A program made the position numbers and the translations under genes. A model generated the notes under the pieces. That model saw only the letters and a program-made list of their open reading frames with translations. It searched no databases and was not told the origin of the DNA. From positions 1,240,001 to 1,304,000 of the forward strand of contig NZ_CP048814.1 of NCBI RefSeq assembly GCF_014217785.1: a stretch of 64,000 nucleotides of DNA. Reading direction: 5' to 3'. The DNA comes from Rhodococcus triatomae (GTDB lineage Bacteria; Actinomycetota; Actinomycetes; Mycobacteriales; Mycobacteriaceae). Numbering within the stretch: the first letter of the stretch is position 1; every line of letters starts with the position of its first letter. Shown piece after piece: positions 17,790 through 49,629 of this stretch.

Positions 17790-17798
17790 AATAGCCGT

Positions 17799-21690: not shown

Positions 21691-21992
21691 GAAGCATCCC
21701 TCTCAAGCTCAAACCATTTGGGTAACAACCTTCGGTCATTGAGAAACTAGTCCCATTGGCGAACAGGCGCCCACGGAGGGTAGTTCGTCCGACCCGGATC
21801 CGGCGACCCGTCCTCGCACGACTTTCCTCCGGATTTCCCATCCTACCTGCGCAAACCGGGATTATCACAGGACCGGGGCCCAGTACTATCGGCAGACGGC
21901 CGCAGGCCGTTACACAACCGACCGTGCAGAATGTGGGATCAGAGCCGACGCCACGCCGTTACTCCCACACCGCCGTCACTCCCACACCGCCG
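21691..21992. other. Region upstream of gltA2
   Basis: These 302 bases separate gltA2 (minus) from the end of the aldose-epimerase gene. The AT-rich part around 21695-21760 should hold the gltA2 promoter. The distal end contains the 17-bp stop-codon repeat (21955-22005). No further gene is supported. Confidence 0.5.
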
Positions 21993-22005
21993 TCACTCCC
22001 ACACG
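21955..22005 (-). repeat. 17-bp tandem repeat (x3) spanning the aldose-epimerase stop codon
   Basis: Three copies of a 17-bp unit occupy 21955-21971, 21972-21988 and 21989-22005. On the coding (minus) strand each carries the last codons GTG TGG GAG followed by a stop: TGA at 21993-21995 (the real one), TGA at 21976-21978 and TAA at 21959-21961. Because 17 is not a multiple of three, the three stops fall in three different frames. Confidence 0.92.
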
Positions 22006-22925
22006 GCCGCCAGGCCCCAGCTGCCCTCCCACGATCGGTCCGGCGCGAGGACGACGACGTCGACACCCGAATTGAAGGCGTCGGGCGGGCACGTCATCGG
22101 CTCCACCGCGAGGGCGCGCCCGCGGCCCGGGAACGGCTTGCCGACCTCGTCCCCGGCCGTGAACACCTGCAACCAGCGGAAGGCCGGGGACGTCCACAAC
22201 TCGGTGGCGATGCCGTCCGGCGAGCTCAGACGGTGCCGCGCCCGCCCGTCGCCGTCCGGGAGCAGCGCGCTGAACGGGGTGTCGAGGACGACGCCGCGCA
22301 GCGGCCGCGGGGAGGTGAAGTCGAACCGCGAACCAGCGACCGGCTGTGACGGCGCGGCAGGGATCATCCGATCGTCCAGCGGGAGCCGGGTACCCGCCGC
22401 CAAGGTGAGCGAACACTCGTCGACGGGGAAGTCCCCGGCCCTGAGGTACGGGTGGACACCCAGCCCGAACGGGGCGGGCACCACGCCGGTGTTCACGGCC
22501 GTGTGCGTGACGGTCAGCCCGTCGGCCGCGAGCCGGTAGGTCACGGTGGTGTGGAGCGGGTACGGCCAGCCCTCGTGCAGGCCGATGTCGACGGCCAGCG
22601 TGACCCGGTCCGGCGCGCGATCGGTCACCCGCCACGGCAGGCGCCGGACGAACCCGTGACTGGCATTGCCGAGTGCGGGTTCGGTGATCGCCAACCGGTG
22701 GGGGACGCCGTCGAAGTCGAACCGGCCGTCGCGGATCCGATTGGGCCAGGGCGCGAGGATCGAGCCCGCGCCGAGCGGCGGGCGGGCGGTGACGTCCCAC
22801 GTCTCGGTGAGTGCGCGCGGCGTTCCGGTGCCTTCCCGCTCCAGCGCGGCGAGCGCGGCTCCGGCGGAGAGCACGACCGCGCGATATCCCCCACCACGAA
22901 TCTCGTACGACACCGGCTCGGCCAT
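21993..22925 (-). CDS. Aldose 1-epimerase family protein
   Basis: A 310-residue galactose-mutarotase-fold protein. The two catalytic-type histidines lie in LGNASHGFVRRLPWR and FGLGVHPYLRAGD, and the acidic residue in the C-terminal AVEPMTCPPDAFNSG. The family interconverts alpha and beta anomers of hexoses; the subgroup (bacterial GalM-like/YphB) is not defined for substrate. The ATG at 22925 opens MAEPVSYEIRGGGYRAVVLSAGAALAAL, where family similarity begins. Its stop codon is inside a three-copy 17-bp repeat. It lies downstream of an MFS gene on the same strand, with 62 bases between. Confidence 0.85.
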   Translation of the reverse strand: MAEPVSYEIRGGGYRAVVLSAGAALAALEREGTGTPRALTETWDVTARPPLGAGSILAPWPNRIRDGRFDFDGVPHRLAITEPALGNASHGFVRRLPWRVTDRAPDRVTLAVDIGLHEGWPYPLHTTVTYRLAADGLTVTHTAVNTGVVPAPFGLGVHPYLRAGDFPVDECSLTLAAGTRLPLDDRMIPAAPSQPVAGSRFDFTSPRPLRGVVLDTPFSALLPDGDGRARHRLSSPDGIATELWTSPAFRWLQVFTAGDEVGKPFPGRGRALAVEPMTCPPDAFNSGVDVVVLAPDRSWEGSWGLAAVWE

Positions 22926-22987
22926 GCACCCATAGTGCACGAATTCCACCGTCCCGCAACGACGATCCACGTCGTCCGGATGCGCCG

Positions 22988-24247
22988 TCAGCGCTGCACG
23001 CGGTAGCGCACCAGCATCGGGAAGGCGAACGCCGCGATCACCACGCCCACGACGACGAGGATTCCGCCACCGGCGGCGGCCACGGCGGTTCCGGCCGCGT
23101 ACGCCGCGGCACCGTGCGCGACGTCACCGATCCGCGGGCCACCGGCGACCACGACGATGAACACGCCCTGCAACCGGCCGCGCATCTCGTCGGTGGCGAC
23201 CTGCTGGAGCATCGTGCTGCGGAACGCCGCCGAGATCATGTCGACCGCACCACCGAACGCCAGGAAGGCCAACGCGGCCCACAGGAACACCGCGCTCGAG
23301 CCGGGCGCGGCCAGCCCGACGACGACACCGAAGCCCACCATCGCCAGGCCCCACAGGACGATGCACACGATCACCGCGAGCCCCTGTCTGCGGACCCGTG
23401 GCAACCAGCCGGAGAAGACGCCGCCGAGTACCGCGCCCACGGACATCGCCGCGAACAGCAGACCGAGGGCGAGTCCCCCGGACGACGGGTCACCGAACGT
23501 CTCGTGGGCGATCTGCGGGAACAGCGCCCGCGGCATACCGAACACCATGGCGATGATGTCCACGACGAACGAGGCGAGCAGCACCTTCTGCGTCGCCAGG
23601 TAGGCGAACCCCGCGAACACCTCCCGGAGCCCGGCCCGCCGGGACTCGCCGGTGGGTCTGAGGGCGGGCAGCCTGTAGGCCGCCCACAGCGTGGCGAGCA
23701 GTGCCACCGAGTCGAGGAGGTACAGCGTCGACAGTCCGACGACCGGGATCATCACGCCGGCCAGCAGTGGGCCCGCGATCGCGCCGAACTGCATCACCGT
23801 CATGTTGAGCGAGTTGGCGGCAGGCAGCTGCGTCGCCGGTATCAGCCTCGGGATGATCGCGCTGCGCGTCGGCTGGTTGACCGCGAAGAACGCCTGCTGC
23901 AAGGCGAGCAGCGACAGCACCACCCACACGTTGTCCAGGCCCGCCGCGGCCTGCGCCCAGAACAGCACGGCGGTGATCCCGAGGCCGCCCGAGGTGATCA
24001 TCAGCAGGGTCCGGCGGTCCATCGCGTCCGCGAGCGCGCCGCCCCACAGCCCGAAGACGATGAGCGGAACGAGGGCGAACGCCCCCGTCAGGCCGACGTA
24101 CGCCGAACTGCCGGTGATGTCGAACACCTGCTGCGGCACGGCGACGATGCTGAGCTGGCCGCCGATGACGGTGACGATGCCCGCCGTCCACAGTCGGCGA
24201 TAGTCCGTGTTGCGCAGCGGCGTGGTGTCGGCGAGGAAACGCCTCAC
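22988..24247 (-). CDS. Major facilitator superfamily transporter
   Basis: A 419-residue polytopic protein with about 12 hydrophobic segments. MFS_3-type features include LRNTDYRRLWTAGIVTVIGGQLSIVAVPQQVFDITGSS at the N terminus and LWGGALADAMDRRTLLM (the loop 2-3 signature). The second half carries GGVFSGWLPRVRRQGLAVIV. Substrate is unknown; relatives are drug or siderophore exporters. The GTG at 24247 opens VRRFLADTTPLRNTDYRRLW and lies downstream of the pdxH stop. Longer readings would overlap pdxH in another frame and were rejected. Confidence 0.85.
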   Translation of the reverse strand: MRRFLADTTPLRNTDYRRLWTAGIVTVIGGQLSIVAVPQQVFDITGSSAYVGLTGAFALVPLIVFGLWGGALADAMDRRTLLMITSGGLGITAVLFWAQAAAGLDNVWVVLSLLALQQAFFAVNQPTRSAIIPRLIPATQLPAANSLNMTVMQFGAIAGPLLAGVMIPVVGLSTLYLLDSVALLATLWAAYRLPALRPTGESRRAGLREVFAGFAYLATQKVLLASFVVDIIAMVFGMPRALFPQIAHETFGDPSSGGLALGLLFAAMSVGAVLGGVFSGWLPRVRRQGLAVIVCIVLWGLAMVGFGVVVGLAAPGSSAVFLWAALAFLAFGGAVDMISAAFRSTMLQQVATDEMRGRLQGVFIVVVAGGPRIGDVAHGAAAYAAGTAVAAAGGGILVVVGVVIAAFAFPMLVRYRVQR

Positions 24248-24284
24248 CGGCTTCCTCCGGCGTGAACTCCCCACGGCACCGCGC

Positions 24285-24974
24285 TCACGGTTGCAGCCTC
24301 TCCACGCGCCATCGGCCGTCCGCCTGCGTGGCCCGGATGCGGTTGTGCATGCGGTCGGCCCGGCCCTGCCAGAACTCGACCGACTCCGGCCGCAGGAGCA
24401 GCCCGCCCCAGAACGGCGGGACCGGAATGCGACCGGAACCGAACCGGTGCCCCGCCTCCACCAGTGCCGCGTCGAGGTCGGCGCGGGAGGCGATCGGGCG
24501 GGACTGGCGTGAGGCCCACGCACCGAGCTGGGATCCGCGGGGACGGCTGCTCCAGTACTCCTCGGTGACCGTGGGGTCCACCTTCTCCACCCGCCCGCAC
24601 ACCGTCACCTGGTGGGCGAGCGGCGCCCAGGTGAACGTCGCCGCGGCGTACGGGGATGCGGCGAGCTGGCGGGCCTTGTCGGAGTCGTAGTTGGTGAAGA
24701 ACAGCACGCCGTCCTCGCTCAGTCCCTTGCAGAGAACGGTGCGGGTGCGAGGCCGACCGTCGTGGTCGACGGTGGCGAGAGTCATGGCGTTGGGTTCGGG
24801 GAGTTCCGCCTCGACGGCGGCCTCGAGCCAGACCCGCAGCAACGGCAGCCAGCCGTCGGCCACCGCGTCCGCGTCGAGGTGCGGTTCCTCCGCGCGGGCC
24901 CCGCGTTCCCCGTATCCCACCCGCATGCCCGCGAGGTCGCGGCCGCGGTTCGTCGGATCGATATCAGATGCCAC
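24285..24974 (-). CDS. pdxH: Pyridoxine/pyridoxamine 5'-phosphate oxidase
   Basis: A 229-residue flavoprotein of normal PdxH length. FMN and substrate motifs seen are [47 protein letters not shown], the [21 protein letters not shown] block, and the C-terminal [30 protein letters not shown]. It makes pyridoxal 5'-phosphate from the pyridoxine or pyridoxamine phosphate with O2 in the cytoplasm. The MFS gene follows 37 bases downstream. citA is divergent; serC, a PLP-dependent enzyme, lies two genes away. Confidence 0.94.
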
Positions 24975-25203
24975 GGAGCGGAACGCTACTCTTGGGTACG
25001 CGACCGTCGGCGGCGTGGTGAGACCGGCTAGAGTTCACGTCGACATCATCTGGCACGGGGCATCGCAGACGCGAGCTGTGCAGGTGGAACAGTCGATTGC
25101 GTGGCCCGGCGCGCTCATCCCGCGCGCACCCGAAGCGCAGACAACGAACGTGTGGACAGTGCCGCTCGGACCGGGGGCACTCGACCGAGGAGAGTTCACG
25201 AGC

Positions 25204-26328
25204 ATGGCAGCGAGCGCAGTGCCGGAGGATTTCGTCAGCGGACTCGAAGGCGTCGTCGCCTTCACCAGTGACATCGCCGAACCGGACAAGGACGGCGGTG
25301 CCCTGCGGTACCGCGGCGTCGACATCGAGGACCTGGTCGGCCGCCAGGTGACTTTCGGCAACGTGTGGGCGCTGCTCGTGGACGGGCGCTTCGGCCCCGG
25401 CCTCCCGCCCGCCGAGCCGTTCCCCCTCCCCATCCACACCGGCGACGTCCGCGTCGACGTGCAGGCCGGACTCGCGATGCTGGCCCCGATCTGGGGATAC
25501 GAGCCGCTGCTGGACATCGACGACGACACCGCGCGGGAGAACCTGGCCCGCGCCTCGGTGATGGCGCTGTCCTACGTGGCCCAGTCCGCCCGCGGCATCT
25601 ACGTGCCCGCCGTTCCGCAGAAGCGCATCGACGAGGCGAAGACCGTCACGGAGCGGTTCATGGTCCGTTGGAAGGGCGAGCCGGATCCGGCGCACGTCGA
25701 GGCGATCGACGCGTACTGGGTGTCCGCCGCCGAGCACGGCATGAATGCCTCCACCTTCACCGCCCGGGTCATCGCCTCGACGGGAGCGGACGTCGCGGCG
25801 TCCCTGTCGGGCGCCATCGGTGCCATGTCCGGCCCGCTGCACGGCGGTGCCCCGGCCCGGGTGCTGCCGATGATCGAGGAGACCGAGAAGACCGGCGACG
25901 CGCGCGCACTGGTCAAGGGCATCCTCGACCGCAAGGAAAAGCTGATGGGCTTCGGGCACCGGGTGTACCGGGCCGAGGACCCCCGTGCCCGTGTGCTCCG
26001 CGCCACCGCCAAGCGCCTGAACGCGCCCCGATACGAGGCTGCGGCCGCGCTCGAACAGGCCGCGCTCGCGGAGCTGCGCGAACGCCGCCCGGACCGCGCG
26101 ATCGAGACCAACGTCGAGTTCTGGGCCGCGGTCATCCTCGACTTCGCCGAGGTGCCGGCGCACATGATGCCGGCGATGTTCACCTGTGGCCGCACCGCCG
26201 GATGGTGCGCACACATCCTGGAACAGAAGCGTCTGGGCAAGCTCGTCCGCCCCGCCGCGATCTACACCGGCCCCGCTCCCCGCGACCCCGATTCGGTCGA
26301 GGGTTGGGACCAGATCTCGCACAGCTAG
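25204..26328 (+). CDS. citA: Citrate synthase CitA (short type)
   Basis: A 374-residue citrate synthase, close to M. tuberculosis CitA (Rv0889c, about 373 aa). Motifs are ISAAEHGMNASTFTARVIASTGAD-like AEHGMNASTFTAR, GPLHGGAPARVLPM and MGFGHRVYRAEDPRARV. The end carries MFTCGRTAGWCAHILEQKRLGKLVRPAAIYTGP. It is a second TCA-entry enzyme beside gltA2; methylcitrate synthase activity is an alternative not excluded by sequence. The ATG at 25204 matches the family start (MAASAVPEDFVSGLEGVVAF). Upstream 229 bases are shared with the divergent pdxH. serC follows after 45 bases. Confidence 0.92.
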   Translation: MAASAVPEDFVSGLEGVVAFTSDIAEPDKDGGALRYRGVDIEDLVGRQVTFGNVWALLVDGRFGPGLPPAEPFPLPIHTGDVRVDVQAGLAMLAPIWGYEPLLDIDDDTARENLARASVMALSYVAQSARGIYVPAVPQKRIDEAKTVTERFMVRWKGEPDPAHVEAIDAYWVSAAEHGMNASTFTARVIASTGADVAASLSGAIGAMSGPLHGGAPARVLPMIEETEKTGDARALVKGILDRKEKLMGFGHRVYRAEDPRARVLRATAKRLNAPRYEAAAALEQAALAELRERRPDRAIETNVEFWAAVILDFAEVPAHMMPAMFTCGRTAGWCAHILEQKRLGKLVRPAAIYTGPAPRDPDSVEGWDQISHS

Positions 26329-27489
<1,161 letters not shown>

Positions 27490-27513
27490 TCGACCGGCCG
27501 GGTTCCGGCTCCT

Positions 27514-27561
27514 GACAACGCAATGCGCCCCACCTTCGAAGGTGGGGCGCATTGCGTTGTC
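27514..27561. terminator. Perfect 48-base palindrome, two-way terminator
   Basis: Positions 27514-27561 read identically on both strands: 24-base arms centred on TTCGAA at 27535-27540 with no mismatch. As RNA it gives a stem of about 21-22 bp with a short loop. It lies between the convergent serC and sfnG stops. Confidence 0.9.
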
Positions 27562-27596
27562 GCAGGTCGCAACCGGTCGCAATAGGCAGCAGCCGG

Positions 27597-28718: not shown

Positions 28719-28724
28719 GGCTGT

Positions 28725-28847
28725 ATGGAACGCGCGCACCGACTCGACGCCCAGGGTTGTGATCGTGACGCACCGAACCCTTCCCCGCCGGACTCACCGG
28801 CGTCAGGCTGTGCCCGGCACACCTCTACCTGCAGGAAGTACGCATGA
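28725..28847 (+). other. Possible 40-codon upstream ORF coupled to sfnB
   Basis: An ATG at 28725 opens 40 codons encoding a peptide with three cysteines, two of them near the end (GCARHTSTCRKYA). Its TGA overlaps the sfnB ATG (ATGA). A cysteine-containing leader in front of a sulfur gene could couple or attenuate sfnB translation, but a short frame of this length also occurs by chance in GC-rich DNA. Confidence 0.3.
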
Positions 28848-30070
28848 CCATCGTCGACAGCACGTCCGCCACGACGCCCGGCCGCCTCACCGGCCCCGAG
28901 CACGCACTCACGACGGCGCGCGAGCTCGCCGCACAGTTCGCCCCGGGAGCCGCCGACCGCGATGCGCGGCGAGTGCTGCCGCACGAGCAGATCCGTGCCC
29001 TCGCCGCGTCCGGGCTGCTCGCGTCGACCGTGCCCGCCGAGCACGGCGGTATCGACGTGAGCACCGAGACACTGACCGAGATCTTCCGAATCCTCGCCGA
29101 GGCGGACCCGAGCGTCGCGCAGATCCCGCACAGCCACTTCACGTTCCTCGAAGTGCTCCGGTTGCAGGCCACCGAGGCCCAGCGCAGCTACTTCTACGGG
29201 GAAGTCCTCGCCGGGAAGACGTTCGCCAACGCCCAGAGCGAACGCGGCACGACCACGATCGACCGGGACGACACCACCCTCACCTCACGAAGCGAGGACT
29301 ACGTTCTCGACGGGCGCAAGTACTACAGCACCGGAGCTCTGTTCGCGGACTGGATCGCGGTGCGGGCGAGCTTCGACGGCGCGGAGTCCCCCGCCGGGCG
29401 GCCGGCCAAGGCGGTGGCATTCGTCCCGAGGGACACCCCAGGGGTCACGGTCGAGGACGACTGGGACGGCCTGGGCCAGAAGACCACCGCCAGCGGCACC
29501 GTCACCCTCGACCACGTGAGCGTCCCGGCGGCGCACGTCGTCGCGTACTCGCCGATCTTCGACGTGCCCACCACCTACGGCGCGCAGGCACAGATCCTGC
29601 ACGCGGCGATCGACGCCGGGATCGCCGTGGCGGCCCTGGCCGAGGGTGTCGCCGCCGCCCGTGCCGCCCGCCCATACTTCGAGGCGGACGTCGATCGTGC
29701 GGTGGACGATCCACTGCTGATCCAGGCGGCGGGCGAGGCCACGGTCACCGTGCGCGGGGCGCTCGCGCTGCTGGGCGAGGGCGCCAGGGCCGTCGACGCC
29801 GCCCGACGTGACCTCACCGAGCACAGCGCCGCCGAGGCGTCGATCGCGGCGGCAGCGGCCAAGGTCGCGGCGGCCCGTGCGTCGCTCGAGGCGTCGACCG
29901 TCCTGTTCGAACTCGGCGGTACGCGAAGCGCTTCGGAGTCCGCCAATCGCTCCCGCCACTGGCGCGACGCGCGCACCCACACGCTGCACGACCCGACACG
30001 CTGGAAGCTGCAGCACATCGGGCGATGGGCGCTGTCCGGCACGCTCCCGCCGAGGCATGGACTGCTCTGA
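28844..30070 (+). CDS. sfnB: SfnB-family sulfur acquisition oxidoreductase (acyl-CoA dehydrogenase fold)
   Basis: A 408-residue acyl-CoA-dehydrogenase-fold flavoprotein. SfnB-like wording includes LPHEQIRALAASGLLASTVPAEHGG, ADPSVAQIPHSHFTFLEVLRLQATEAQRSYFYGEVLAGKTFANAQSERGT, DYVLDGRKYYSTGALFADWIAVRA, and ANRSRHWRDARTHTLHDPTRWKLQHIGRW at the C terminus. The family includes DszC-type flavin monooxygenases; SfnB is needed for growth on sulfones but its exact reaction is less clear. It is divergent from sfnG, 125 bases away. The stop at 30068 lies inside a 28-bp tandem repeat. Confidence 0.87.
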   Translation: MTIVDSTSATTPGRLTGPEHALTTARELAAQFAPGAADRDARRVLPHEQIRALAASGLLASTVPAEHGGIDVSTETLTEIFRILAEADPSVAQIPHSHFTFLEVLRLQATEAQRSYFYGEVLAGKTFANAQSERGTTTIDRDDTTLTSRSEDYVLDGRKYYSTGALFADWIAVRASFDGAESPAGRPAKAVAFVPRDTPGVTVEDDWDGLGQKTTASGTVTLDHVSVPAAHVVAYSPIFDVPTTYGAQAQILHAAIDAGIAVAALAEGVAAARAARPYFEADVDRAVDDPLLIQAAGEATVTVRGALALLGEGARAVDAARRDLTEHSAAEASIAAAAAKVAAARASLEASTVLFELGGTRSASESANRSRHWRDARTHTLHDPTRWKLQHIGRWALSGTLPPRHGLL

Positions 30071-30140
30071 CGAGAAGTCGTGACACGGACTCCTCTGACG
30101 AGCAGTCGCGACACGGACTCCCCTGACGAGCAGTCGCGAC
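30065..30140 (+). repeat. 28-bp tandem repeat (x2.7) spanning the sfnB stop codon
   Basis: Copies begin at 30065, 30093 and 30121 (the last is 20 bases). The first carries the final Leu codon and the sfnB stop (CTC TGA, 30065-30070). The same TGA recurs at 30096-30098 and 30124-30126. Period 28 puts the three stops in three frames. A few substitutions separate the copies. Confidence 0.88.
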
Positions 30141-30253
30141 TCCCCTGACCGGACAACTCCGCGCCGGTGCGTGCGTGTCCTCCCCGAGAGTGCGTCACAA
30201 GTCGATTACAGTCGGGACGGACATCGCGAGCCGGCGCGATAGGGAGGTTCAAA

Positions 30254-31138: not shown

Positions 31139-31177
31139 CACGTAGACGCGCACCCTGAGGTCGGACAGGGAGGTTCG

Positions 31178-31879
31178 GTGGGGGCGGAGCTGTCGACGAT
31201 CTGGTACGTCGATTCGCCGCGCCCCGCGCTCGCATTACGCGGGTATCCCGCGCCCGACGCGCGGTCCGGGCAGGCAATCGCACGCGTTCTGTTCGACGAC
31301 GACGTGACGCCCCTCGGGCAGGTACCCCTCGCCCACGTGGCGGCCGGGACTCCCGATGTCCTGTACGTCGGCGTGTATCCGGGCGTGACAGTGGTGTGTG
31401 CCGATTTCCCCGCGACGATGCTGCCGTCGGAGTTACCGGAACACTGGCGACGTGCCGGATCGTCCGGGCGCACGCTGTTCGTCGCCTCGTCCGTGGCGGG
31501 CGCACGCGCAGGTTTCGCGGAGTGGCGGGGTGAGGAACTGCGCCGATCGTTCAGCGCCGATGCCGCCGACATCTTCGAGGATATCGGTGTCCCGCAGGTG
31601 TGGGAGCGACCGTTCTGGGCGGGCGAGTTTCCGATGACGTATCCGCTCGACGTGTTCCCCGACCCGCAGATGCTGCCCTTCCACCCTCAGCGATTCGCCG
31701 AGGCCGCGAACCGCGCATGGCTCGGATTTCGCTACACAGCAGTACAACCCGACGACGCCATCGACCCGGCCCGGCTACTCGTCCACGGTTTCCGGGCCGG
31801 AGCACCCGTCGCTCCCGCGCCGCCGCAGGTCCCCGAAACCCGGAATCCGGATCCGGCCCCCCCCGGCCGATCACGGTGA
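31178..31879 (+). CDS. DUF6928-like protein of unknown function, probably frameshifted at its C terminus
   Basis: As read it encodes 233 residues: TIWYVDSPRPALALRGYPAPDARSGQ at the N terminus, LYVGVYPGVTVVCADF, SVAGARAGFAEWRGEELRRSFS and WAGEFPMTYPLDVFPDPQMLPFHPQRFAEAANRAWLGF. I recognise the family only as one of unknown function (probably DUF6928). The start is GTG at 31178 with GGGAGG upstream, 39 bases after sepH. A run of eight C (31857-31864) precedes an abrupt Pro-rich end. With seven C the frame continues to 31943 as 254 residues, ending SPSLLRWLGFKA, and that stop lies in a tandem repeat. Either the assembly has one extra C or the tract is slippery. Confidence 0.75.
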   Translation: MGAELSTIWYVDSPRPALALRGYPAPDARSGQAIARVLFDDDVTPLGQVPLAHVAAGTPDVLYVGVYPGVTVVCADFPATMLPSELPEHWRRAGSSGRTLFVASSVAGARAGFAEWRGEELRRSFSADAADIFEDIGVPQVWERPFWAGEFPMTYPLDVFPDPQMLPFHPQRFAEAANRAWLGFRYTAVQPDDAIDPARLLVHGFRAGAPVAPAPPQVPETRNPDPAPPGRSR

Positions 31880-31937
31880 GCAGAGCCCGGCCCCGGCCAA
31901 GCGGTCACCGAGCTTGCTGCGCTGGCTGGGCTTCAAG

Positions 31938-31981
31938 GCGTGACGACAATGCACAGGCGTGACGACAATGCACAGGCGTGA
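31938..31981 (+). repeat. 19-bp tandem repeat (x2.3) containing stop codons
   Basis: The unit GCGTGACGACAATGCACAG occurs at 31938-31956 and 31957-31975 with a third start at 31976. Each begins with Ala-stop (GCG TGA), giving TGA at 31941, 31960 and 31979 in three successive frames. The first is the stop that the frame-corrected upstream gene would use. Confidence 0.92.
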
Positions 31982-31983
31982 TG

Positions 31984-33068: not shown

Positions 33069-33228
33069 CGCTCTATCGTCCCGTATCCCGATCAGCGCCC
33101 GTCGGCACCCTCTCACCTGGGGCCCGACCCTTGCGCCCTCTCCGGCTCCGTGCACCCCGTCCAGCCGGCAACGGACGAACTGGAGGTGCAGACAGCTGGG
33201 CCGAGTGCGAGGGCGCCGAGCGGCCTTC

Positions 33229-34614: not shown

Positions 34615-34681
34615 CGACGTGAGGTGGAGCTCGACCTCCCCGTGCTCTACGCCGGGTCGGTCACACGACCCGCGTCACACG

Positions 34682-36964: not shown

Positions 36965-36992
36965 CACCCTCGGGACAGCGGTCGGGCCTCGG

Positions 36993-40270: not shown

Positions 40271-40338
40271 CCGGGTCGGTGAACTCCGCCAGCCCTCCAG
40301 CGTCGCGGCACGCAGGCCGGCGGTGCCGAACGGATCGG

Positions 40339-41175: not shown

Positions 41176-41233
41176 CCGTCCAGTTTGCCGCACCCGGGCC
41201 CCGGACGTTCACCTGGGCTGCCATCCTGGACCG

Positions 41234-42058: not shown

Positions 42059-42128
42059 CGGGCCGAGTGACCAGTAACCGGCGGGCGGGTGTGGGCGTTC
42101 GCTCCCGGACTAGGACAGAATTGGAACC

Positions 42129-43838
42129 GTGACCGGACCGAGTGACCGCAACGAACCTGATCCACGTCGGCACGCCGGCAGGGATCGGTCGGGGCAGCGC
42201 CCGGACGGTCCGGCTCCGACGCGCCGGATGGAGGGCGATCCGTCGGCCCACCCCGGCTACGACCGGTACCCACCGGCCAGTCGGCAGTCGGCGCGGCGCA
42301 CCCCGCTCCCGCCGCTGCACCCGGTCGGCGACAACGGCGCCCGGCGTGACCCCCAGGACACCCCCCGCGACCCGAAGGGCACACCGAAGGCTCCCCCGAT
42401 GCCGCGCAAGCTGACCGTGACCCGTGTCGCGGCGATGCGCAGCCGCGAACTGACCAACAGGGGCATCGCGACGTTCCAGCGAGCCGCCAAGGCCGACGGG
42501 GCGGACAAGTCCGGCCTCACCGCCTTGACGTACGCGGTCATGGCGAACTTCGCGACCGACGCCGCGATCGCCGTCGCACTGGCGAACACGCTGTTCTTCT
42601 CGGCGGCGACGGGCGAGGACAAGACGAAGGTCGCCCTCTACCTGTTGATCACGATCGCACCGTTCGCGGTGATCGCTCCGGTGATCGGTCCGCTCCTCGA
42701 CCGGCTCCAGCACGGACGCAGGCTCGCCTTGGCCACCTCGTTCGCGTTGCGCACGGTGCTGGCGATATTGCTGGTCTTCAACTTCGACAGTTGGATCCTG
42801 TATCCGGCCGCGCTGGGCATGATGGTGCTGAGCAAGTCGTTCTCGGTGCTCAAGAGCGCGGTGACACCACGTGTGCTCCCCCCGGAGATCGACCTGGTCC
42901 GGGTCAATTCCCGACTGACCGTGTTCGGTCTCATCGGTGGCACGATCGGCGCGGGCGCCGTCGCAGCGGCGCTGGCGGCGCTGACCGGTTCGGCCGGTGC
43001 ACTGTGGTTCGCGGCCCTCGTCACCGCGCTCGGCACCTACCTGAGCATGCGGATCCCGTCCTGGGTCGAGGTCACCGAGGGTGAGGTGCCCGCGACGATC
43101 ACCTATCACGGTGACGATGCCCGCACCGCCGTCATCGATCCGGTGACCACCCCGGTCCAGCCGGACAAGCGGCGGCAGCCGCTGGGCCGGTCGGTGATCG
43201 TCGGCCTCTGGGGCAACGGAACCATCCGCGTTCTCACCGGCTTCCTCACGCTGTACATCGCCTTCGTGGCCAAGGCGACCACCGAACACGAACCGCTGAT
43301 GCAGGCCGCGATGCTGGGCCTGGTGGGCGCGGCAGCCGGTATCGGCAACTTCGCCGGCAACGCGACCGGAGCGCGACTGAGACTGGGCCGTCCCGCCCTC
43401 ATCGTCGTCCGCTGCACCGGCGCGGTGTGGGTGGTGGCCGTCCTCGCCGCCGTCACCGACAACCTGCTGGCCGCGGCGCTGGCGGCACTCGTCGCCTCGG
43501 CGGCGAGCGCCCTGGCCAAGGTCTCGCTCGACGCCTCCCTCCAGCACGATCTCCCGGAGGAGTCGATCGCGTCCGGATTCGGCCGCTCCGAGACGGTGCT
43601 CCAGTTGAGCTGGGTCGTCGGCGGCACCCTGGGGGTGCTCCTGCCCACCACCTTCTGGATCGGCTTCACCGTGGTGTCGGTGGTGCTGACCCTCGGTCTG
43701 CTCCAGACAGTGCTGTCCTACCGTGGAAGCACACTGCTGCCCGGGCTGGGCGGCAAGCGACCGAACCTCGCGAAGCAGGAAGTGACCGAGCCCCTCTCGA
43801 CCCACCGGGTCGACCGACCGACGGGAACCGTGAAGTAA
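42129..43838 (+). CDS. Conserved MFS-type membrane protein (Rv0876c homologue)
   Basis: A 569-residue polytopic protein. About 95 residues of Pro/Arg/Asp-rich, disordered N terminus precede RVAAMRSRELTNRGIATFQRAAKADGADKSGLTALTYAVMANFATDAAIAVALANTLFF. Transmembrane segments continue to about residue 530, including LKSAVTPRVLPPEIDLVRVNSRLTVFGLIGGTIGAG. The length, disordered N terminus and downstream DUF2771 gene match Rv0876c. The substrate is unknown. GTG start at 42129. The DUF2771 gene begins on the base after its stop, so they are co-transcribed. Confidence 0.88.
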   Translation: MTGPSDRNEPDPRRHAGRDRSGQRPDGPAPTRRMEGDPSAHPGYDRYPPASRQSARRTPLPPLHPVGDNGARRDPQDTPRDPKGTPKAPPMPRKLTVTRVAAMRSRELTNRGIATFQRAAKADGADKSGLTALTYAVMANFATDAAIAVALANTLFFSAATGEDKTKVALYLLITIAPFAVIAPVIGPLLDRLQHGRRLALATSFALRTVLAILLVFNFDSWILYPAALGMMVLSKSFSVLKSAVTPRVLPPEIDLVRVNSRLTVFGLIGGTIGAGAVAAALAALTGSAGALWFAALVTALGTYLSMRIPSWVEVTEGEVPATITYHGDDARTAVIDPVTTPVQPDKRRQPLGRSVIVGLWGNGTIRVLTGFLTLYIAFVAKATTEHEPLMQAAMLGLVGAAAGIGNFAGNATGARLRLGRPALIVVRCTGAVWVVAVLAAVTDNLLAAALAALVASAASALAKVSLDASLQHDLPEESIASGFGRSETVLQLSWVVGGTLGVLLPTTFWIGFTVVSVVLTLGLLQTVLSYRGSTLLPGLGGKRPNLAKQEVTEPLSTHRVDRPTGTVK

Positions 43839-44330
43839 GTGAACATGCAGGCACGCACCAAGAAGATCGTCATCGCGGTCGCCGCCGGGCTGCTCGTCAC
43901 CCTGGTGGCCTTCACTGCGGTGCTGACGGTGCTGATCCGCAACTCGGATCCGCGGCCGGTGACCGTCACCGCGTTCGCCGACGGCACGTCCGTGACGGTC
44001 CCGCCGTTCCAGTACTGCACCATGGATCTGCAGGACTGCACCGAGGGGGACGTCACGATTCTCGAGCTCCGGCCGGGATCGCCGCTGCAGCTGTCACTGC
44101 CCAGTGAGGTCTCCTCGGTGCGCTGGCGCCTGCTCGCCGTGTACGAGACCGCGGACGGCGGCACCGTCGAGGAACAGCTCTTCGCACCCGGAGACGCCTC
44201 TGCGGTGACGGTGCCCTCGTCGATCGAGAATCCGTTGATCGGCGTCGAGATCCAGCTTCCGTCCTCCGTGGTGGACGAGCAGGAGCGCCCGTTCGTGCAC
44301 GCAGTCTGGTCGATCCAGACCCTGGTGTAG
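43839..44330 (+). CDS. DUF2771 protein (Rv0875c homologue), membrane-anchored
   Basis: A 163-residue protein with one N-terminal membrane segment (IVIAVAAGLLVTLVAFTAVLTVLI) and an extracytoplasmic beta-rich domain. PFQYCTMDLQDCTEGDV carries two conserved cysteines likely to form a disulfide, and RPGSPLQLSLPSEVSSVRWRLLAVYETADG follows. Function unknown. GTG start directly after the stop of the MFS gene. Its own stop (TAG, 44328) is the first of three in a tandem repeat, followed by a strong hairpin. Confidence 0.88.
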   Translation: MNMQARTKKIVIAVAAGLLVTLVAFTAVLTVLIRNSDPRPVTVTAFADGTSVTVPPFQYCTMDLQDCTEGDVTILELRPGSPLQLSLPSEVSSVRWRLLAVYETADGGTVEEQLFAPGDASAVTVPSSIENPLIGVEIQLPSSVVDEQERPFVHAVWSIQTLV

Positions 44331-44378
44331 CGAACGGCAGAGCTGCATAGCGACACGGCAGAGCTGCATAGCGAACGG
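44328..44378 (+). repeat. 20/21-bp tandem repeat (x2.5) spanning the DUF2771 stop codon
   Basis: TAGCGA-containing units begin at 44328, 44348 and 44369, each opening with the gene's own stop TAG. The shared part CGGCAGAGCTGCATAGCGA is identical in the two full copies. One unit is 20 and one 21 bases, so the stops fall in two frames. Confidence 0.9.
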
Positions 44379-44419
44379 CGAGGCCGCGGCGACCGAGTTC
44401 GGTCTCCGCGGCCTCGCCG
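44376..44419. terminator. Strong hairpin between DUF2771 and cspB
   Basis: The arms CGGCGAGGCCGCGG (44376-44389) and CCGCGGCCTCGCCG (44406-44419) pair perfectly. An inner GACCGA-GT-TCGGTC extends the stem after one mismatch. It lies between convergent genes and can serve both. Confidence 0.88.
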
Positions 44420-44443
44420 TGTCGTGTCGCTGTCGGTGTCTGC

Positions 44444-44851
44444 TCAGCTGTCCAGCTCGCGCGCGACCGCCCGCACGACTTCCGAGATCCGCTGCGCGGT
44501 CTTGCGGTCCGGGTAGCGCCCCTTGCGCAGATCCGGCTGCACCTTCGCCTCGAGGAGCGTGATCATGTCCTCGACCATCCCGTGCAACTCGTCCGGCGTG
44601 TGCTTCTTGGCGGCCGGCTCCCGACGGGTGGCCGCACGCAGGGACGGGGCCGGATCGAGCACCTTCAGGCTCAGTGCCTGCGGCCCGCGCCTCCCGGCGG
44701 CCATCCCGAACTCCACGCGCTGGCCGGCCTTGAGGCCCTCGACGCCCGCGGGCAGCGCGGACGCACGTACATACACGTCCTCACCGTCCTCCTGCGACAG
44801 AAAGCCAAAGCCCTTCTCGACGTCGTACCACTTCACCTTGCCGGTCGGCAC
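44444..44851 (-). CDS. cspB: Cold-shock-domain protein CspB-like (135 aa)
   Basis: Residues 1-66 form a cold-shock domain: [36 protein letters not shown] has the RNP1-type KGFGFL; the second RNA-binding strand reads DVYVRAS rather than the usual DVFVH. The 70-residue C-terminal extension is helical and charged ([53 protein letters not shown]). Total length 135 equals M. tuberculosis CspB (Rv0871). It should bind single-stranded RNA or DNA. The GTG at 44851 (VPTGKVKW) was chosen as the usual family start; a GTG three codons earlier is possible. Confidence 0.9.
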
Positions 44852-45062
44852 CGTGTTCACCCGCTCCGCTGACAGCAGCCGCACTCCGTGTGAATGCGGC
44901 CCGTGGATAATGCAAAACAACGCGCCCTACCTGGTTGCAGGACGCGCCGATACTTCGAGTCTAGCCTGTGCTCCGGGCGCCGGGCACGCCCTTTCCCGGG
45001 GCGCGGGCGGGCCGCGGTAGGCGACACGTCGCTGTGCAGCGGGAGTGGCATAACGTGGAGTC

Positions 45063-45278
45063 GTGACCAGAGCTCCCAAACACTCGCCAGCGCTCTTCTA
45101 CTCGGCCGTCGTGTCGTTCGTGGTCGGGCTCGCCGCCATCGTGGCGGTCTTCCTCCTGCACGCGTTCTCCGACGACGCCCCGAACCTGGCGCTCTACGTG
45201 GTCGCGATGTTCGCCTGCCCGCTCGGGTTCCTGCTCGCTATCGTCTATGCCCTGACCTCCGGTCGCCGAAGTCGGTGA
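45063..45278 (+). CDS. Small two-helix membrane protein, unknown function
   Basis: A 71-residue protein with two hydrophobic segments (ALFYSAVVSFVVGLAAIVAVFLLHAF and LALYVVAMFACPLGFLLAIVYAL) and a basic C terminus. I do not recognise a family with certainty. It starts at GTG 45063 and is followed 43 bases later by the YccF gene on the same strand, likely in one unit. Confidence 0.75.
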   Translation: MTRAPKHSPALFYSAVVSFVVGLAAIVAVFLLHAFSDDAPNLALYVVAMFACPLGFLLAIVYALTSGRRSR

Positions 45279-45321
45279 CGCCCTCGGGCACCCCCGGCCG
45301 GCCCCTCGAAAGGACTCGATC

Positions 45322-45717
45322 GTGCGGATCCTGCTGAACATCATCTGGCTGGTCTTCGGTGGCCTCTGGCTGGCGCTGGGCTACTTCGTCGCCGGAATCA
45401 TCTGCTGCATCCTCATCATCACCATCCCGTTCGGGATCGCAGCGTTCCGCATCGGCGTCTACGCACTGTGGCCGTTCGGAAAGACCGTGGTGGACAAGCC
45501 GACCTCCGGAGTCGGCTCACTGATCGGAAACGTCATCTGGCTGATCGTGGCCGGCATCTGGCTTGCCATCGGCCACGTCGTCTCCGCGATCGCGATGGCG
45601 ATCACGATCATCGGCATTCCCCTCGCGATCGCGAACCTGAAGATGATCCCCATCTCCCTGATGCCACTCGGCAAGGACATCGTCGACGTCGACGCACGGC
45701 CCACGCAGTGGAACTGA
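45322..45717 (+). CDS. YccF-domain membrane protein (Rv0870c homologue)
   Basis: A 131-residue protein with two tandem YccF domains. Each has the pattern N-x-IWL-hydrophobic-GxWLA-G: LLNIIWLVFGGLWLALGYFVAGIICCILIITIPFGIAAFRIGVYALWPFGKTVV and then IGNVIWLIVAGIWLAIGHVVSAIAMAITIIGIPLAIANLKMIPISLMPLGKDIV. About four membrane segments. Function unknown. GTG start with GAAAGGA upstream. Its stop is within a 23-bp repeat. Confidence 0.88.
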   Translation: MRILLNIIWLVFGGLWLALGYFVAGIICCILIITIPFGIAAFRIGVYALWPFGKTVVDKPTSGVGSLIGNVIWLIVAGIWLAIGHVVSAIAMAITIIGIPLAIANLKMIPISLMPLGKDIVDVDARPTQWN

Positions 45718-45794
45718 GTGCGACCCGCACGTGGAACCGAGTGCGACCCGCACGTGGAACCGAGTGCCACCCGCACGTGGAACCGAGCGCGACC
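45708..45794 (+). repeat. 23-bp tandem repeat (x3.8) overlapping the YccF-gene stop
   Basis: Units begin at 45708, 45731, 45754 and 45777. The first contains the last codons TGG AAC and the stop TGA (45715-45717); in later copies TGA has become CGA. Each full unit also contains GTGCG-ACC-CGCAC or a near variant, a small hairpin. Copies differ by one or two bases. Confidence 0.9.
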
Positions 45795-46054
45795 ATTCCC
45801 CACTCGATGTGACCTTCCTCACATAACGAGCCTATAACGGACAGGTGTACGGCAGCTCTCGGCCACCGTTCGGGCCGACTAGCTGGGAAGAGGCGATGCG
45901 GGCCGAAAGCCGGACCGGAACAACGGGAGACGCGCCGCGTTACCAAATGGTGACACGAGGGCCGAGGAGCGTTACCGTCGTCTCCGGTCGAGGAAACCTC
46001 GGCCAGATCCGGTCCCGCCGCGCCAAACCCTGTCCCGTGGGAACCGGATTCCCG
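45795..46054. other. Upstream part of the rpf leader region
   Basis: No gene is supported here. The AT-richer stretch near 45812-45840 (CTCACATAACGAGCCTATAAC) is a likely promoter area. The GC-rich part after 45930 (TTACCAAATGG, then GGTGACACGAGG) may be promoter and 5' untranslated leader of rpf ahead of the riboswitch. Confidence 0.4.
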
Positions 46055-46250
46055 ACGAAGCAATCCGAGGGACGGGGACGGGGGACCCACAGTCCTCCAG
46101 GAGACTCCGGTTTCCGCACAGGACACCGGCCGCGACATGCACCGCATGCCACGGCCTCGGGGTGAAGCCAGGCCCTTTCCCGCCAGGAAAGGCGAGGCCG
46201 AGCGACCTCTCAGCTCGAACCCGACAGCTGACCTCGCAGGCGCGCGTGGA
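46055..46250 (+). ncRNA. ydaO-yuaA (c-di-AMP) riboswitch upstream of rpf
   Basis: Conserved ydaO blocks are in the right order: GACGGGGGACCCA near 46075-46090, CCTCGGGGTGAAGCC (46156-46170), and CGAACCCGACAGCTGACC followed by TCGCAGGCG (46216-46242). The element ends about 20 bases before the rpf ATG. In actinobacteria this riboswitch binds c-di-AMP and turns off expression of rpf-type cell-wall hydrolases. Boundaries are approximate. Confidence 0.85.
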
Positions 46251-46266
46251 GAGGATCTCGACCATC

Positions 46267-46833
46267 ATGAGCGGACGCCATCGCAAGCCCACGAACACTG
46301 GCCGCAACGTCGCCAAGGTCGCCGTCACCGGCGCCATCATGGGTGTCGCCGGAGCCGCATTCGCCGGCACCGCCAACGCTGCACCCGATTCCGACTGGGA
46401 CCGCCTCGCACAGTGCGAGTCCGGCGGCAACTGGGCCATCAACACCGGAAACGGATACCAGGGTGGGCTGCAGTTCTCGCCCAGCACCTGGAACGCACAC
46501 GGCGGCGGAGAATTCGCCGCCTCCGCCCACAACGCCAGCCGCGAACAGCAGATCGTCGTCGCCGAGCGCGTCCTCGAGTCCCAGGGCTGGGGCGCCTGGC
46601 CGTCCTGCTCGTCCAGCCTCGGCCTGTCGAGCGCTCCGACGCAGCGTCAGGCCCCGGCAACGGCAGCGGAGACCACTCCCGCACCGGCCGTCACCGAGGT
46701 TCCGACCGTCGACGGTGCCGCCCAGGTCCAGGACGTCATCGACACCGCGATCGAGACCGTCCGTGCGCAGGGCATCGAACTCGACCCGCAGGTCCTCGCG
46801 TTCATCGACGCGAACCGCCACCTGCTGAAGTAA
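46267..46833 (+). CDS. rpfA: Resuscitation-promoting factor (RpfA-type)
   Basis: A 188-residue secreted muralytic enzyme. The signal peptide covers residues 1-38 (basic start, then VAVTGAIMGVAGAAFAGTANA). The Rpf lysozyme-like domain (about 40-115) reads DSDWDRLAQCESGGNWAINTGNGYQGGLQFSPSTWNAHGGGEFAASAHNASREQQIVVAERVLESQGWGAWPSCSSSLG with catalytic Glu51 and the conserved Cys pair. An Ala/Pro/Thr linker and a short helical end follow. It cleaves peptidoglycan to allow growth from dormancy. A c-di-AMP riboswitch precedes it. It is the Rv0867c position but lacks that protein's long Pro-Ala tail. Confidence 0.93.
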   Translation: MSGRHRKPTNTGRNVAKVAVTGAIMGVAGAAFAGTANAAPDSDWDRLAQCESGGNWAINTGNGYQGGLQFSPSTWNAHGGGEFAASAHNASREQQIVVAERVLESQGWGAWPSCSSSLGLSSAPTQRQAPATAAETTPAPAVTEVPTVDGAAQVQDVIDTAIETVRAQGIELDPQVLAFIDANRHLLK

Positions 46834-46846
46834 GACAGCTTCACCG

Positions 46847-46895
46847 GATGAATGGCACTTTCATCGCCCCTGAGGCGATGAAAGTGCCATTCATC
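46847..46895. terminator. Perfect 22-bp hairpin after rpf
   Basis: Arms 46847-46868 and 46874-46895 are exactly complementary (22 bp) with a five-base loop. It lies 13 bases after the rpf stop and is followed by TTGTC. A strong intrinsic or structural terminator. Confidence 0.92.
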
Positions 46896-46950
46896 TTGTC
46901 GTGAACCCCGCGGATCGCGAGCGAACACACGCGGCACACGCGACATAACA

Positions 46951-46995
46951 CGACGGAAAGGCCCCGCACCGGTGTGGTGCGGGGCCTTTCCGTCG
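46951..46995. terminator. Perfect 20-bp hairpin serving the opposite strand
   Basis: Arms 46951-46970 and 46976-46995 pair perfectly around the loop GGTGT. It is nine bases from the stop of the minus-strand small gene at 47005, so it probably terminates that transcript and backs up the rpf one. Confidence 0.92.
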
Positions 46996-47004
46996 GATGC
47001 CGTG

Positions 47005-47193
47005 TCAGCGATTGATGACGGTGTGCGGGTGCGCGTAGGGCAGGGACTCGACAGGAAGCGGGAATTCGGTGTCCTCACCGAACGGCGACAGACCGCCTGC
47101 ACGGGACGACGACAACTCCGTCACCGCATGGTCACCGTCAGCGACGTCCGGCCAGCCTGGATCCACATACTGATTCTTCGCTTTGTTAGCCAC
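47005..47193 (-). CDS. Small hypothetical protein in the Rv0863 position
   Basis: A 62-residue hydrophilic protein opening [62 protein letters not shown]. No signal peptide or membrane segment. Its place and orientation opposite the Rv0862c homologue match Rv0863, and the end resembles it as I recall. It starts at GTG, divergent from 47254, with its own hairpin terminator downstream, which supports it being a real gene. Confidence 0.72.
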
Positions 47194-47253
47194 GCAGACA
47201 TTTTGACACCAGCCTTCGTCGCAGTACAGCCCAGGTCACTAATCTGAGGGGCG

Positions 47254-49563
47254 ATGACCGACACAGCCCCCCGACCGGAGCGCCCTCGCGGCACCCGGCA
47301 GCCTGCCGCGAACCTCGCGGAATGGCTGTCGGGTCGCAGCGACGACGAACTCGCCGACCTGCTACGGCTGCGACCGGACCTGGCGGTGCCGCCCCCGGCG
47401 ACGGTCGCCGTACTCGCAGGCAGAGCCGAACAGCGCACCTCGGTGATGCGGGTCGCGGACGGCCTGACGTCGCTGCACTTCTCCGTCATCGAACTGCTCG
47501 CGCTCGAACGGGCCGAGGAGGCGCCGGTCACGTTCGACGTGCTCCGGGACGCCGTCAACGGGCGGGTCCCGGTCAAGGAATTGCGGCGGGTGCTGGACAT
47601 GCTTCGCGCCCGGGCCCTCGTCTGGGGTGACGACACCGGGCTGCGCCTCGTCCCGGCCGCGACGTCGGCACTGCCCTGGCGGGTGGGACGGGCCATCGAC
47701 GGAGCGACGACGCTCGGTGAAGACGAGATCGTCGCGGCCCTGGAGCGGATCGAGCCCGCGGAACGGAACCTCCTCGACACACTCGCCGGTTCCAGTCCGC
47801 TCGGGCGCACCAGGGACGCCGCGCCCGGCACACCCCCGGACCGCCCGGTGCAACGCCTGCTGGCGGCACAGCTACTGCGCTGGATCGACGACGACACCGT
47901 CGAACTCCCCCACGAGGTGGGTCAGGTACTCCGCGGCGAGGTCGCCTACGACCCCGCGAGCCTGCGGCCACCGCCGGTGCGGACGACGCATCACAAGCCC
48001 GCCGACGTGAACGCGGCGGCCGCGGGCGAGGCGCTCGAGCTCATTCGGCACGGTGAGGACGTCCTCGCGGCACTCGGGGCCTCCCCCGCGCCCGTGTTGC
48101 GTGCCGGCGGGCTGGGGGTGCGCGAGCTCAAGCGACTGGTGAAGGCGACCGGTATCGACGAGACCCGGCTCGGGGTGGTCGTGGAGATCCTGGTCGCCGC
48201 CGGGCTGGTCGCCGCCGGCCCGCCCGATCCGCCGGTGTCCGACACCGGCGACAGTTACTGGGCGCCGACGACGGCAGCCGACTCGTGGTTGAACGCGTCC
48301 ACCGCGCACCGCTGGTACACGCTCGCCGGTGCGTGGTACGAGATGCCCCGTATGCCCTGGTTCATCGGCCAGCGAGATTCCGCCGACAAGCCGATCGCAG
48401 CGCTCTCGGAGGAGGGCCGCGCACCCTCGGCGCCCGAGGATCGTCGCGCGATCCTCTCGGTGCTCGCCGAGCTCGAACCGGGCGACGCGGTTCCGCCGGC
48501 CGACGTGAGCGTCTCCCTCTCCTGGCAGCGGCCCCGGTGGTCGTCTCGGCTGCGTACCCGGTCCGTGGAGAACACGCTGCACGAGGCCGCGGCGGTGGGG
48601 CTGGTTGCTCGCGGGGCACTGAGCTCTCCGGGGCGAGCGCTGCTCCACGGCGGCGACACCGAGGCCCAGATGGCGCAGGTGCTGCCCGATCCGATCGACT
48701 ACGTACTGGTGCAGGCCGATCTCACGATCGTCGCGCCCGGCCCGCTCACCGCGGACCTGCTGGACCGGGTCACCCTGGTGGCGGACATCGAGTCCGCGGG
48801 TGCGGCGTCGATGTACCGGATCAGCGAGGACAGCATCCGACGGGCGCTCGACGCGGGCATGACCGCTGCCGAGATCCGCGCCCTGTTCGGCACCCACTCA
48901 CGCACACCGGTGCCCCAGTCCCTCACCTACCTGGTGGACGACGTCGCGCGCCGACACGGGAGGCTCCGGGCCGGAGTCGCGTCGTCGTTCCTGCGCTGCG
49001 AAGATCCTGCTCTGCTCGCCGAGGTTCTCGCCTCACCGGTCGCGGAGGCGCTCGCGTTGCGCGCCCTGGCACCCACTGTCGCGGTGTCCCAGGCGCCCCT
49101 GCGGGCCGTGCTGGAGGAGTTGCGCGCCGCGGGATTCGCTCCGGCAGGCGAGGATTCGTCCGGAGCCCTGGTCGACCTGCGCCCCCGCGGCGCGCGGGTG
49201 CCGGTGCGGCGGAACCGCTCGGGACGTACCCGCGCAGTCGCGACTCCGGACGCGGAGCAACTGGCCTCGATGGTACGCACCATGCGGGCGGGCGACCTCG
49301 CCGCGGACACCGGAAAGACCTCGGGCATCCGCTCGGACGGGTCCCGCGCCAGCAGCGCGGCCACCGTCGCGATGCTGGCGACGGCCGCCCGAAACCGGAC
49401 CAGTGTCGCGATCGGCTACGTCGATGCGCAGGGTGTGGCGATGCACCGGATCGTCGACCCCATCGGGGTGGGAGGCGGCCAACTCGAGGCCTTCGATCCC
49501 GGCACCGGCGCGGTCCGCAGGTTCACCCTGCACCGGATCATCTCGGTGCGCCCCGTGGAATAG
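47254..49563 (+). CDS. Helicase-associated domain protein (Rv0862c homologue)
   Basis: A 769-residue protein of the Helicase_C_3/XPB-Ssl2-like family that lacks Walker motifs. The start is RQPAANLAEWLSGRSDDELADLLRLRPDLAVPPPATVAVLAGRAEQRTSV. Middle segments resemble winged helices (FHFSVIELLALERAEEAPVTFDVL-like LHFSVIELLALE). The family core is VLPDPIDYVLVQADLTIVAPGPLTADL, SMYRISEDSIRRALDAGMTAAEI and VPQSLTYLVDDVARRHGRL. The end IGVGGGQLEAFDPGTGAVRRFTLHRIISVRPVE resembles a WYL-type domain. In M. tuberculosis it is next to ercc3; here the sulfonate cluster separates them. Role unknown, perhaps DNA repair. Confidence 0.88.
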   Translation: MTDTAPRPERPRGTRQPAANLAEWLSGRSDDELADLLRLRPDLAVPPPATVAVLAGRAEQRTSVMRVADGLTSLHFSVIELLALERAEEAPVTFDVLRDAVNGRVPVKELRRVLDMLRARALVWGDDTGLRLVPAATSALPWRVGRAIDGATTLGEDEIVAALERIEPAERNLLDTLAGSSPLGRTRDAAPGTPPDRPVQRLLAAQLLRWIDDDTVELPHEVGQVLRGEVAYDPASLRPPPVRTTHHKPADVNAAAAGEALELIRHGEDVLAALGASPAPVLRAGGLGVRELKRLVKATGIDETRLGVVVEILVAAGLVAAGPPDPPVSDTGDSYWAPTTAADSWLNASTAHRWYTLAGAWYEMPRMPWFIGQRDSADKPIAALSEEGRAPSAPEDRRAILSVLAELEPGDAVPPADVSVSLSWQRPRWSSRLRTRSVENTLHEAAAVGLVARGALSSPGRALLHGGDTEAQMAQVLPDPIDYVLVQADLTIVAPGPLTADLLDRVTLVADIESAGAASMYRISEDSIRRALDAGMTAAEIRALFGTHSRTPVPQSLTYLVDDVARRHGRLRAGVASSFLRCEDPALLAEVLASPVAEALALRALAPTVAVSQAPLRAVLEELRAAGFAPAGEDSSGALVDLRPRGARVPVRRNRSGRTRAVATPDAEQLASMVRTMRAGDLAADTGKTSGIRSDGSRASSAATVAMLATAARNRTSVAIGYVDAQGVAMHRIVDPIGVGGGQLEAFDPGTGAVRRFTLHRIISVRPVE

Positions 49564-49629
49564 TCGGGACGTGGAATAGTCGGGACGTGGAATAGTCGGA
49601 ACACGGCATAGTCGGGACGCGGAGTACCA
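49555..49629 (+). repeat. 16-bp tandem repeat (x4.7) spanning the stop codon of the Rv0862c homologue
   Basis: GTGGAATAGTCGGGAC and close variants begin at 49555, 49571, 49587, 49603 and 49619. The first carries Val-Glu-stop; TAG recurs at 49561, 49577, 49593 and 49609. A period of 16 moves each stop one frame on, so all three frames are closed within 35 bases. Confidence 0.93.

Follow-up and report, generated by a model that had tools for sequence, protein, structure and literature searches.

Tandem repeats in archaeal Borgs are head-to-tail, with units of 18-21 nt in the examples, are formed independently and evolve fast, and the units within open reading frames (ORFs) are all divisible by three; the arrays counted were perfect and A-rich, had at least three units and at least 50 nt, and were often accompanied by flanking partial repeats (PMC9879509). 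In Mycobacterium tuberculosis, the repeat structure of the rnc-fpg variable-number tandem repeat (VNTR) begins 40 bp past a stop codon, and mycobacterial interspersed repetitive units (MIRU) are sequences of 40-100 bp scattered over 41 places (PMC2734929). The TAACTGA repeats of marine Beggiatoaceae are stop-containing direct repeats, 13 sets of which overlap the stop of the upstream gene (PMC4679880). The subject of this work is a set of six short tandem arrays in the window, a 64,000-nucleotide stretch (bases 1,240,001-1,304,000) of the Rhodococcus triatomae genome, which is a single contig of 4.77 Mb. In a search with one protein, which may omit records closest to this genome, the nearest named relatives were Rhodococcus records (73% and 70% identity). 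A sequence-only reading had reported that each array contains the stop codon of a gene, and had attributed this either to a duplication process directed at gene ends or to selection for stops in several frames. The arrays counted throughout were those detected by Tandem Repeats Finder (TRF) with a period of 12-35 bp and a score of at least 60, unless a score of at least 50 or at least 40 is given.

Each of the six window arrays consists of a head-to-tail unit of roughly 10-100 bp, which is the criterion for a minisatellite. Among the systems compared, the Borg tandem repeats appear to be the closest precedent. As in the Borgs, the first unit lies partly inside the gene end, with the stop located within the first copy in 30 of the 32 array-gene pairs of the genome at a score of at least 50 (20 of 22 at a score of at least 60 without the window). 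Unlike the Borg repeats, the arrays are mostly imperfect, have about 2-5 copies and belong to a GC-rich chromosome (68.7% GC in the sample), and exact duplications over stops often lack flanking partial repeats. Mycobacterial VNTR loci are the closest bacterial kind. VNTR and MIRU-VNTR loci consist of tandem units in or beside genes that vary in copy number between relatives; for gene-end arrays of the type considered here, such variation was seen between sister species of a related clade, G017. However, the window units are shorter than MIRU (16-28 bp) and are not one dispersed family, a 10-mer being common to only 2 of 351 unit pairs, and the Beggiatoaceae repeat differs in being one fixed heptamer that lies mostly close upstream of starts. 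The arrays are of the known minisatellite kind, and a bias of such arrays to gene ends was not found described for Rhodococcus in the open-access literature searched; none of the matches listed, as judged by titles and abstract openings, reported stop-spanning tandem arrays in Rhodococcus, subscription journals being mostly outside this search.

The arrays are probably ordinary bacterial minisatellites of the VNTR type, which are sorted by selection and kept at gene 3' ends. The genome was sampled as 60 stretches of 20 kb (~25% of it) besides the window, and the total with the window is 1.264 Mb. Genes were predicted with our own codon-usage caller (1240 genes at first, 1243 in the final form), which, when applied to an annotated 50-kb stretch of Escherichia coli K-12, located 46 of 48 stops and called one additional stop. 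Given that the window had been picked for its stop-array pattern, counts that include it are biased and window-free counts are preferred; the window is included in the tally of 137 arrays, the density ratio of 2.30, the flanking-homology test, the hairpin and gene-termini tests, and the first-copy count of 30 of 32 given above.

Exact tandem duplications of 12-80 bp exceeded chance, with 64 observed in the 61 stretches against 0 in a first-order Markov resample. The 137 arrays were distributed as 24 over a stop only, 1 over a start only, 2 over both, 44 intergenic, 65 in genes and 1 at an edge, where 4.4 arrays over a stop and 5.2 over a start would be expected under uniform placement. Once the window was removed and the final gene calls were applied, the 130 remaining arrays included 18 over a stop only, 1 over a start only, 3 over both, 43 intergenic, 64 in genes and 1 at an edge, and 16 stop arrays remained when only high-score genes were counted. 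An overlap of arrays with stops beyond chance, as implied by the sequence-only reading, was confirmed genome-wide under both the uniform null and a permissible-placement null. In the latter, arrays were contracted to one copy and the unit could be placed anywhere in the gap, over the stop included, with the start and the 12 nt before it barred; a stop was covered by 15 of the 58 gap arrays outside the window, compared with 6.7 expected (p=0.0021). The excess of stop-spanning arrays outside the window is real. The window itself holds 5 stop arrays in 64 kb (the DUF6928-linked array being scored as intergenic in all statistics), and the corresponding probability at the rate seen elsewhere, P=0.006, is of little weight because the window was selected for that cluster. 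TAG was the stop codon in 9 of 27 stop rows, representing 26 arrays with the window included, compared with 212 of 1188 genes.

Arrays located inside genes had a period divisible by three in 62 of 65 cases (window included). Of 62 in-gene arrays tested for position, 12 were found no further than 60 nt from the start and 12 no further than 60 nt from the stop, with 4.3 expected at each terminus, and enrichment at both gene termini is what tolerance predicts. Selection would thus sort arrays according to location, such that they are frame-preserving in genes, purged over starts, and harmless over and after stops. The first duplication may result from an error of replication or break repair, and later copies may be added by slippage; arrays over stops and just after them would then be neutral. 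A unit lying across a stop would do no harm, since the C-terminal codons and the stop survive in the first copy and extra copies merely extend the 3' untranslated region. Hence, the zone from ~20 nt before the stop to 40 nt after it would be expected to collect arrays.

The position of the bias relative to the stop was assessed in gaps that still measured 25 nt or more once arrays had been contracted. At a score of at least 40 and without the window, 16 arrays were found over the stop in 11.8 kb, 33 in the 24.0 kb that make up the first 40 nt downstream, and 49 in the other non-coding DNA in 88.9 kb, so that the zone around the stop has ~2.5 times the background density. The ratio of the density over the stop to that in the next 40 nt was 0.99 at this score, and 1.59 (p=0.29) at a score of at least 60. 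At the higher score, the stop zone exceeded background 2.8-fold (p=0.006) and the first 40 nt 1.7-fold (p=0.096). The edges of the units were uniformly distributed around the stop, as judged by Kolmogorov-Smirnov tests without the window (p=0.68 and 0.82 at scores of at least 60 and 50, respectively) and, at a score of at least 50, with it (p=0.78 for this genome and 0.61 for all sampled genomes). At that same score, the stop lay within the first copy in 25 of 27 pairs without the window, and in 45 of 49 pairs from all sampled genomes with the window included. A duplication process aimed at the stop itself, one of the two causes first proposed, is not borne out, as unit edges are randomly placed and the density over the stop outside the window resembles the value for the 40 nt that follow; a mechanism measured from the stop was therefore rejected on its random register. 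The stop is included through position and not through recognition. What stands from the sequence-only reading is the bias of tandem arrays to gene 3' ends, which was found in the genome and in the genus, whereas neither of its two causes was upheld.

Stop arrays were also examined in other genomes, the samples of which are small. In 16 genomes of the same genus pooled (0.80 Mb), a stop was covered by 7 of 12 gap arrays, compared with 1.5 expected, three of the seven stop arrays being from genome G006, two of them adjacent, and two from G017. In genome G037, 3 of 4 gap arrays covered a stop, with 0.4 expected. Across sister species of the G017 clade, a whole-unit difference in copy number or span was observed at three of the four stop arrays compared. 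At the first gene end, the five species carry 4, 4, 2, 1 and 1 copies, in a count by eye that ignores degenerate partial copies, and at the second a 24-bp unit is present in three species and absent in two. The third is shorter by exactly one 15-bp period in one of four sisters, based on spans only. The fourth could be aligned through in one sister only, without any change the size of a unit. G017 also has an intergenic array near position 16920 (L142), not a stop array, which is shorter by 14-53 bases in all four sisters, again as measured by spans. In G006, two different 21-bp arrays, both classed as stop-spanning, are adjacent (L127:15070-15191).

The alternative that selection keeps multi-frame stop arrays, which catch frameshifted or readthrough ribosomes, draws on the additional stops reported for later copies, which are indeed found in all window arrays but one, and on the window periods, most of which are not multiples of three. 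Outside the window, however, there is no depletion of periods divisible by three, the remainders 0, 1 and 2 being represented by 6, 7 and 5 of the 18 stop arrays, and such periods account for 8 of 26 stop arrays at a score of at least 40. Moreover, the stop was kept in 26 of 33 later copies (79%), compared with 76.6% identity of other triplets, and in 30 of 41 (73%) compared with 73.0% at a score of at least 50, the window being excluded from both; with the window included, it was kept in 33 of 45 compared with 72.7%, some of the misses being register shifts, such as two in the DUF2771 array. In the YccF array, direct reading verified that copies 2-4 all carry CGA where the first copy has the stop. 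Selection for multi-frame stops, the other cause first proposed, was rejected on the flat distribution of period remainders and on the retention of stops no better than that of other triplets, and we consider it very improbable. A role of the arrays as transcription terminators or as RNA elements of the 3' end is likewise highly improbable. The YccF unit does include a CGCAC/GTGCG inverted pair, and a GC-rich inverted repeat of 14 bp comes after the DUF2771 array, but the units are not one family, a scan of the window against Rfam gave no match at the gathering score, and the best 40-nt folding energy after stop arrays was the same as at other gene ends (p=0.62 for tandem and 0.87 for convergent genes), while the best energy inside arrays was spread from -1.5 to -27.4 kcal/mol. 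With hairpins after arrays not special and no Rfam family in the window, a terminator or structured RNA is unsupported. An assembly artefact would be compatible with the window being known from a single assembly, but similar gene-end arrays occur in independent assemblies of the genus and differ by whole units between sister species, making this explanation extremely improbable.

Several observations weigh against ordinary minisatellites sorted by tolerance as a complete account. The change in copy number concerns a related clade and not the window's own arrays, for which the 60 relatives searched proved too distant; their longest matches are ~1.2-1.3 kb at 74-75% identity, with shorter ones of up to 87%. 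When the window is counted, arrays cover the stop at 2.30 times the density found over the following 40 nt (p=0.02 at a score of at least 60). In this genome, without the window, convergent gaps are poor in arrays beyond the first 40 nt from a stop, with 0 in 8.0 kb at a score of at least 60 and 2 in 7.9 kb at a score of at least 40. Relief from promoter constraint is therefore not the full explanation of the 3' bias, because these promoter-free deep convergent gaps are not array-rich. No stop enrichment was detected in G035, G039 and G047 together (1 of 21 gap arrays compared with 2.0 expected; 9 of the 13 intergenic arrays of G047 with a score of at least 50 fall in one 20-kb stretch) or in the Nocardia loci, which all come from the neighbourhood of a single gene sampled across many species (0 of 3 compared with 0.4 expected). 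In the non-enriched genomes, arrays were 2.4-fold enriched in the first 40 nt after stops (p=0.025), with 1 array in 13.8 kb in the stop zone (score of at least 40). This lineage difference counts against tolerance, since tolerance should hold in G035, G039, G047 and Nocardia too. Finally, among exact duplications with fewer than three copies, flanking homology was zero in 7 of 11 that span a stop, compared with 4 of 44 elsewhere (p=4e-4), in a test that was chosen after looking at the data and in which one of the seven belongs to a longer imperfect array (L077). A replicate of this contrast was not obtained, as 0 of 39 such duplications in other genomes span a stop. The few cases available hint that stop duplications have a different origin from the others.

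The scarcity of arrays deep in convergent gaps and the lineage difference, both poorly explained by tolerance, keep alive a rival in which a mutational process of the lineage favours gene 3' ends when it forms short tandem duplications, such as the repair of staggered nicks or breaks at transcription termination sites by fill-in and homology-free joining through Ku/LigD. This rival is unlikely, albeit with a genuine chance of being correct. It would fit the excess over background in the stop zone and the following 40 nt, the enrichment that is seen in this genome, the genus and G037 and missing from G035, G039, G047 and Nocardia, the frequent lack of flanking homology in stop duplications, and the presence of Ku in this genome. 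However, Ku and NucS were found in each of the eight genomes tested, whether or not the stop bias occurs there. Their presence thus leaves the lineage difference unexplained, and the presence of non-homologous end joining or of NucS was ruled out as its cause. The register around the stop is random, with nothing tied to termination, and hairpins after the arrays are not special. The homology contrast is post hoc and unreplicated, and a homology-free process, when simulated, gives zero flanking homology in only ~50% of cases. The narrower proposal that, in Rhodococcus-type genomes, a lineage-specific homology-free process seeds tandem duplications of 15-30 bp preferentially around gene 3' ends, by mutation beyond tolerance alone, is quite unlikely.

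If these arrays are minisatellites tolerated at gene 3' ends, as favoured here, even such striking stop-codon arrays require no stop-codon function. They would document, with measurements, the way in which short tandem duplications may be filtered by selection along a bacterial gene, units across a stop forming a harmless class, and are candidate VNTR-type markers for Rhodococcus. Were the 3' bias mutational, it would indicate an unrecognised source of small duplications linked to gene ends.

All six window arrays were detected by TRF at the positions first reported, and direct reading agreed on their periods and on the placement of the stops. The arrays are listed in the Table.

Table. Tandem arrays at gene ends in the window (positions are those of the window).
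Unit (bp)	Copies	Array position (strand)	Stop codon	Gene or protein ending at the stop	Evidence
17	3.3	21954-22009 (-)	TGA 21993-21995, spanned	aldose 1-epimerase gene, 21993-22949	TRF, reading, Pfam Aldose_epim
28	2.9	30059-30140 (+)	TGA 30068-30070, spanned	SfnB-family oxidoreductase gene, 28844-30070	TRF, reading, NCBIfam TIGR04022 above cut-off
19	2.4, perfect	31936-31981 (+)	first TGA, 31941-31943	end of protein P0001	TRF, reading
20/21	2.5	44328-44379 (+)	TAG 44328-44330, array starts at stop	DUF2771 gene, 43839-44330	TRF, reading
23	4	45704-45794 (+)	TGA 45715-45717, spanned	YccF gene, 45322-45717	TRF, reading
16	4.4	49554-49623 (+)	TAG 49561-49563, spanned	helicase-C/WYL gene, 47254-49563 (earlier label: Rv0862c homologue)	TRF, reading

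The claim that every array carries the stop of its gene applies to five of the six, each with a predicted gene. In the sixth, the stop is that of the near-identical protein P0001 and not of the DUF6928 frame of the window, which closes at 31879, the 19-bp array starting 57 nt beyond; the first TGA of this array terminates a different frame. P0001 (254 aa) matches 98% of the query at 100% identity, and its C-terminus reaches exactly the first TGA of the array. The array is therefore located where a near-identical protein has its stop, because P0001 runs into that C-terminus, and a similar C-terminal tail is present in two relatives, P0002 and P0003. The closure of the DUF6928 gene in another frame than P0001 (31178-31981) represents either a true frame difference or a sequencing error.

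The units had also been described as unrelated to one another. They do not form one family, but short words are common to them somewhat above chance. Among the 351 pairs formed by the units of 27 arrays of the genome sample, an 8-mer was common to 16 pairs, a 9-mer to 5 and a 10-mer to the 2 mentioned above, compared with 8.0, 2.3 and 0.6, respectively, after shuffling. The inverted repeat next to the DUF2771 array is perfect, with arms at 44376-44389 and 44406-44419; it starts in the last bases of the array and lies between convergent genes.

Other repeats were present in the window. Six copies of GCAGGTCACA with a 10-bp period occur at 4155-4216, upstream of a gene for an ArsR-family regulator (4310-4639) and an SBF-family symporter gene, and as judged from sequence and location this repeat looks like a candidate operator array. 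Three near-palindromes around GTGCACGAGTGCAC, spaced by 25 bp, are found at 17723-17789, directly upstream of an MscS-like gene on the minus strand (16761-17696) and in the gap towards a histidine kinase gene (18494-19819). These are operator-like and may represent a further candidate operator. An ORF called over them (17709-18506) had no Pfam match and is doubtful. A 9-bp unit is repeated ~5 times at 50119-50165, within a predicted gene.

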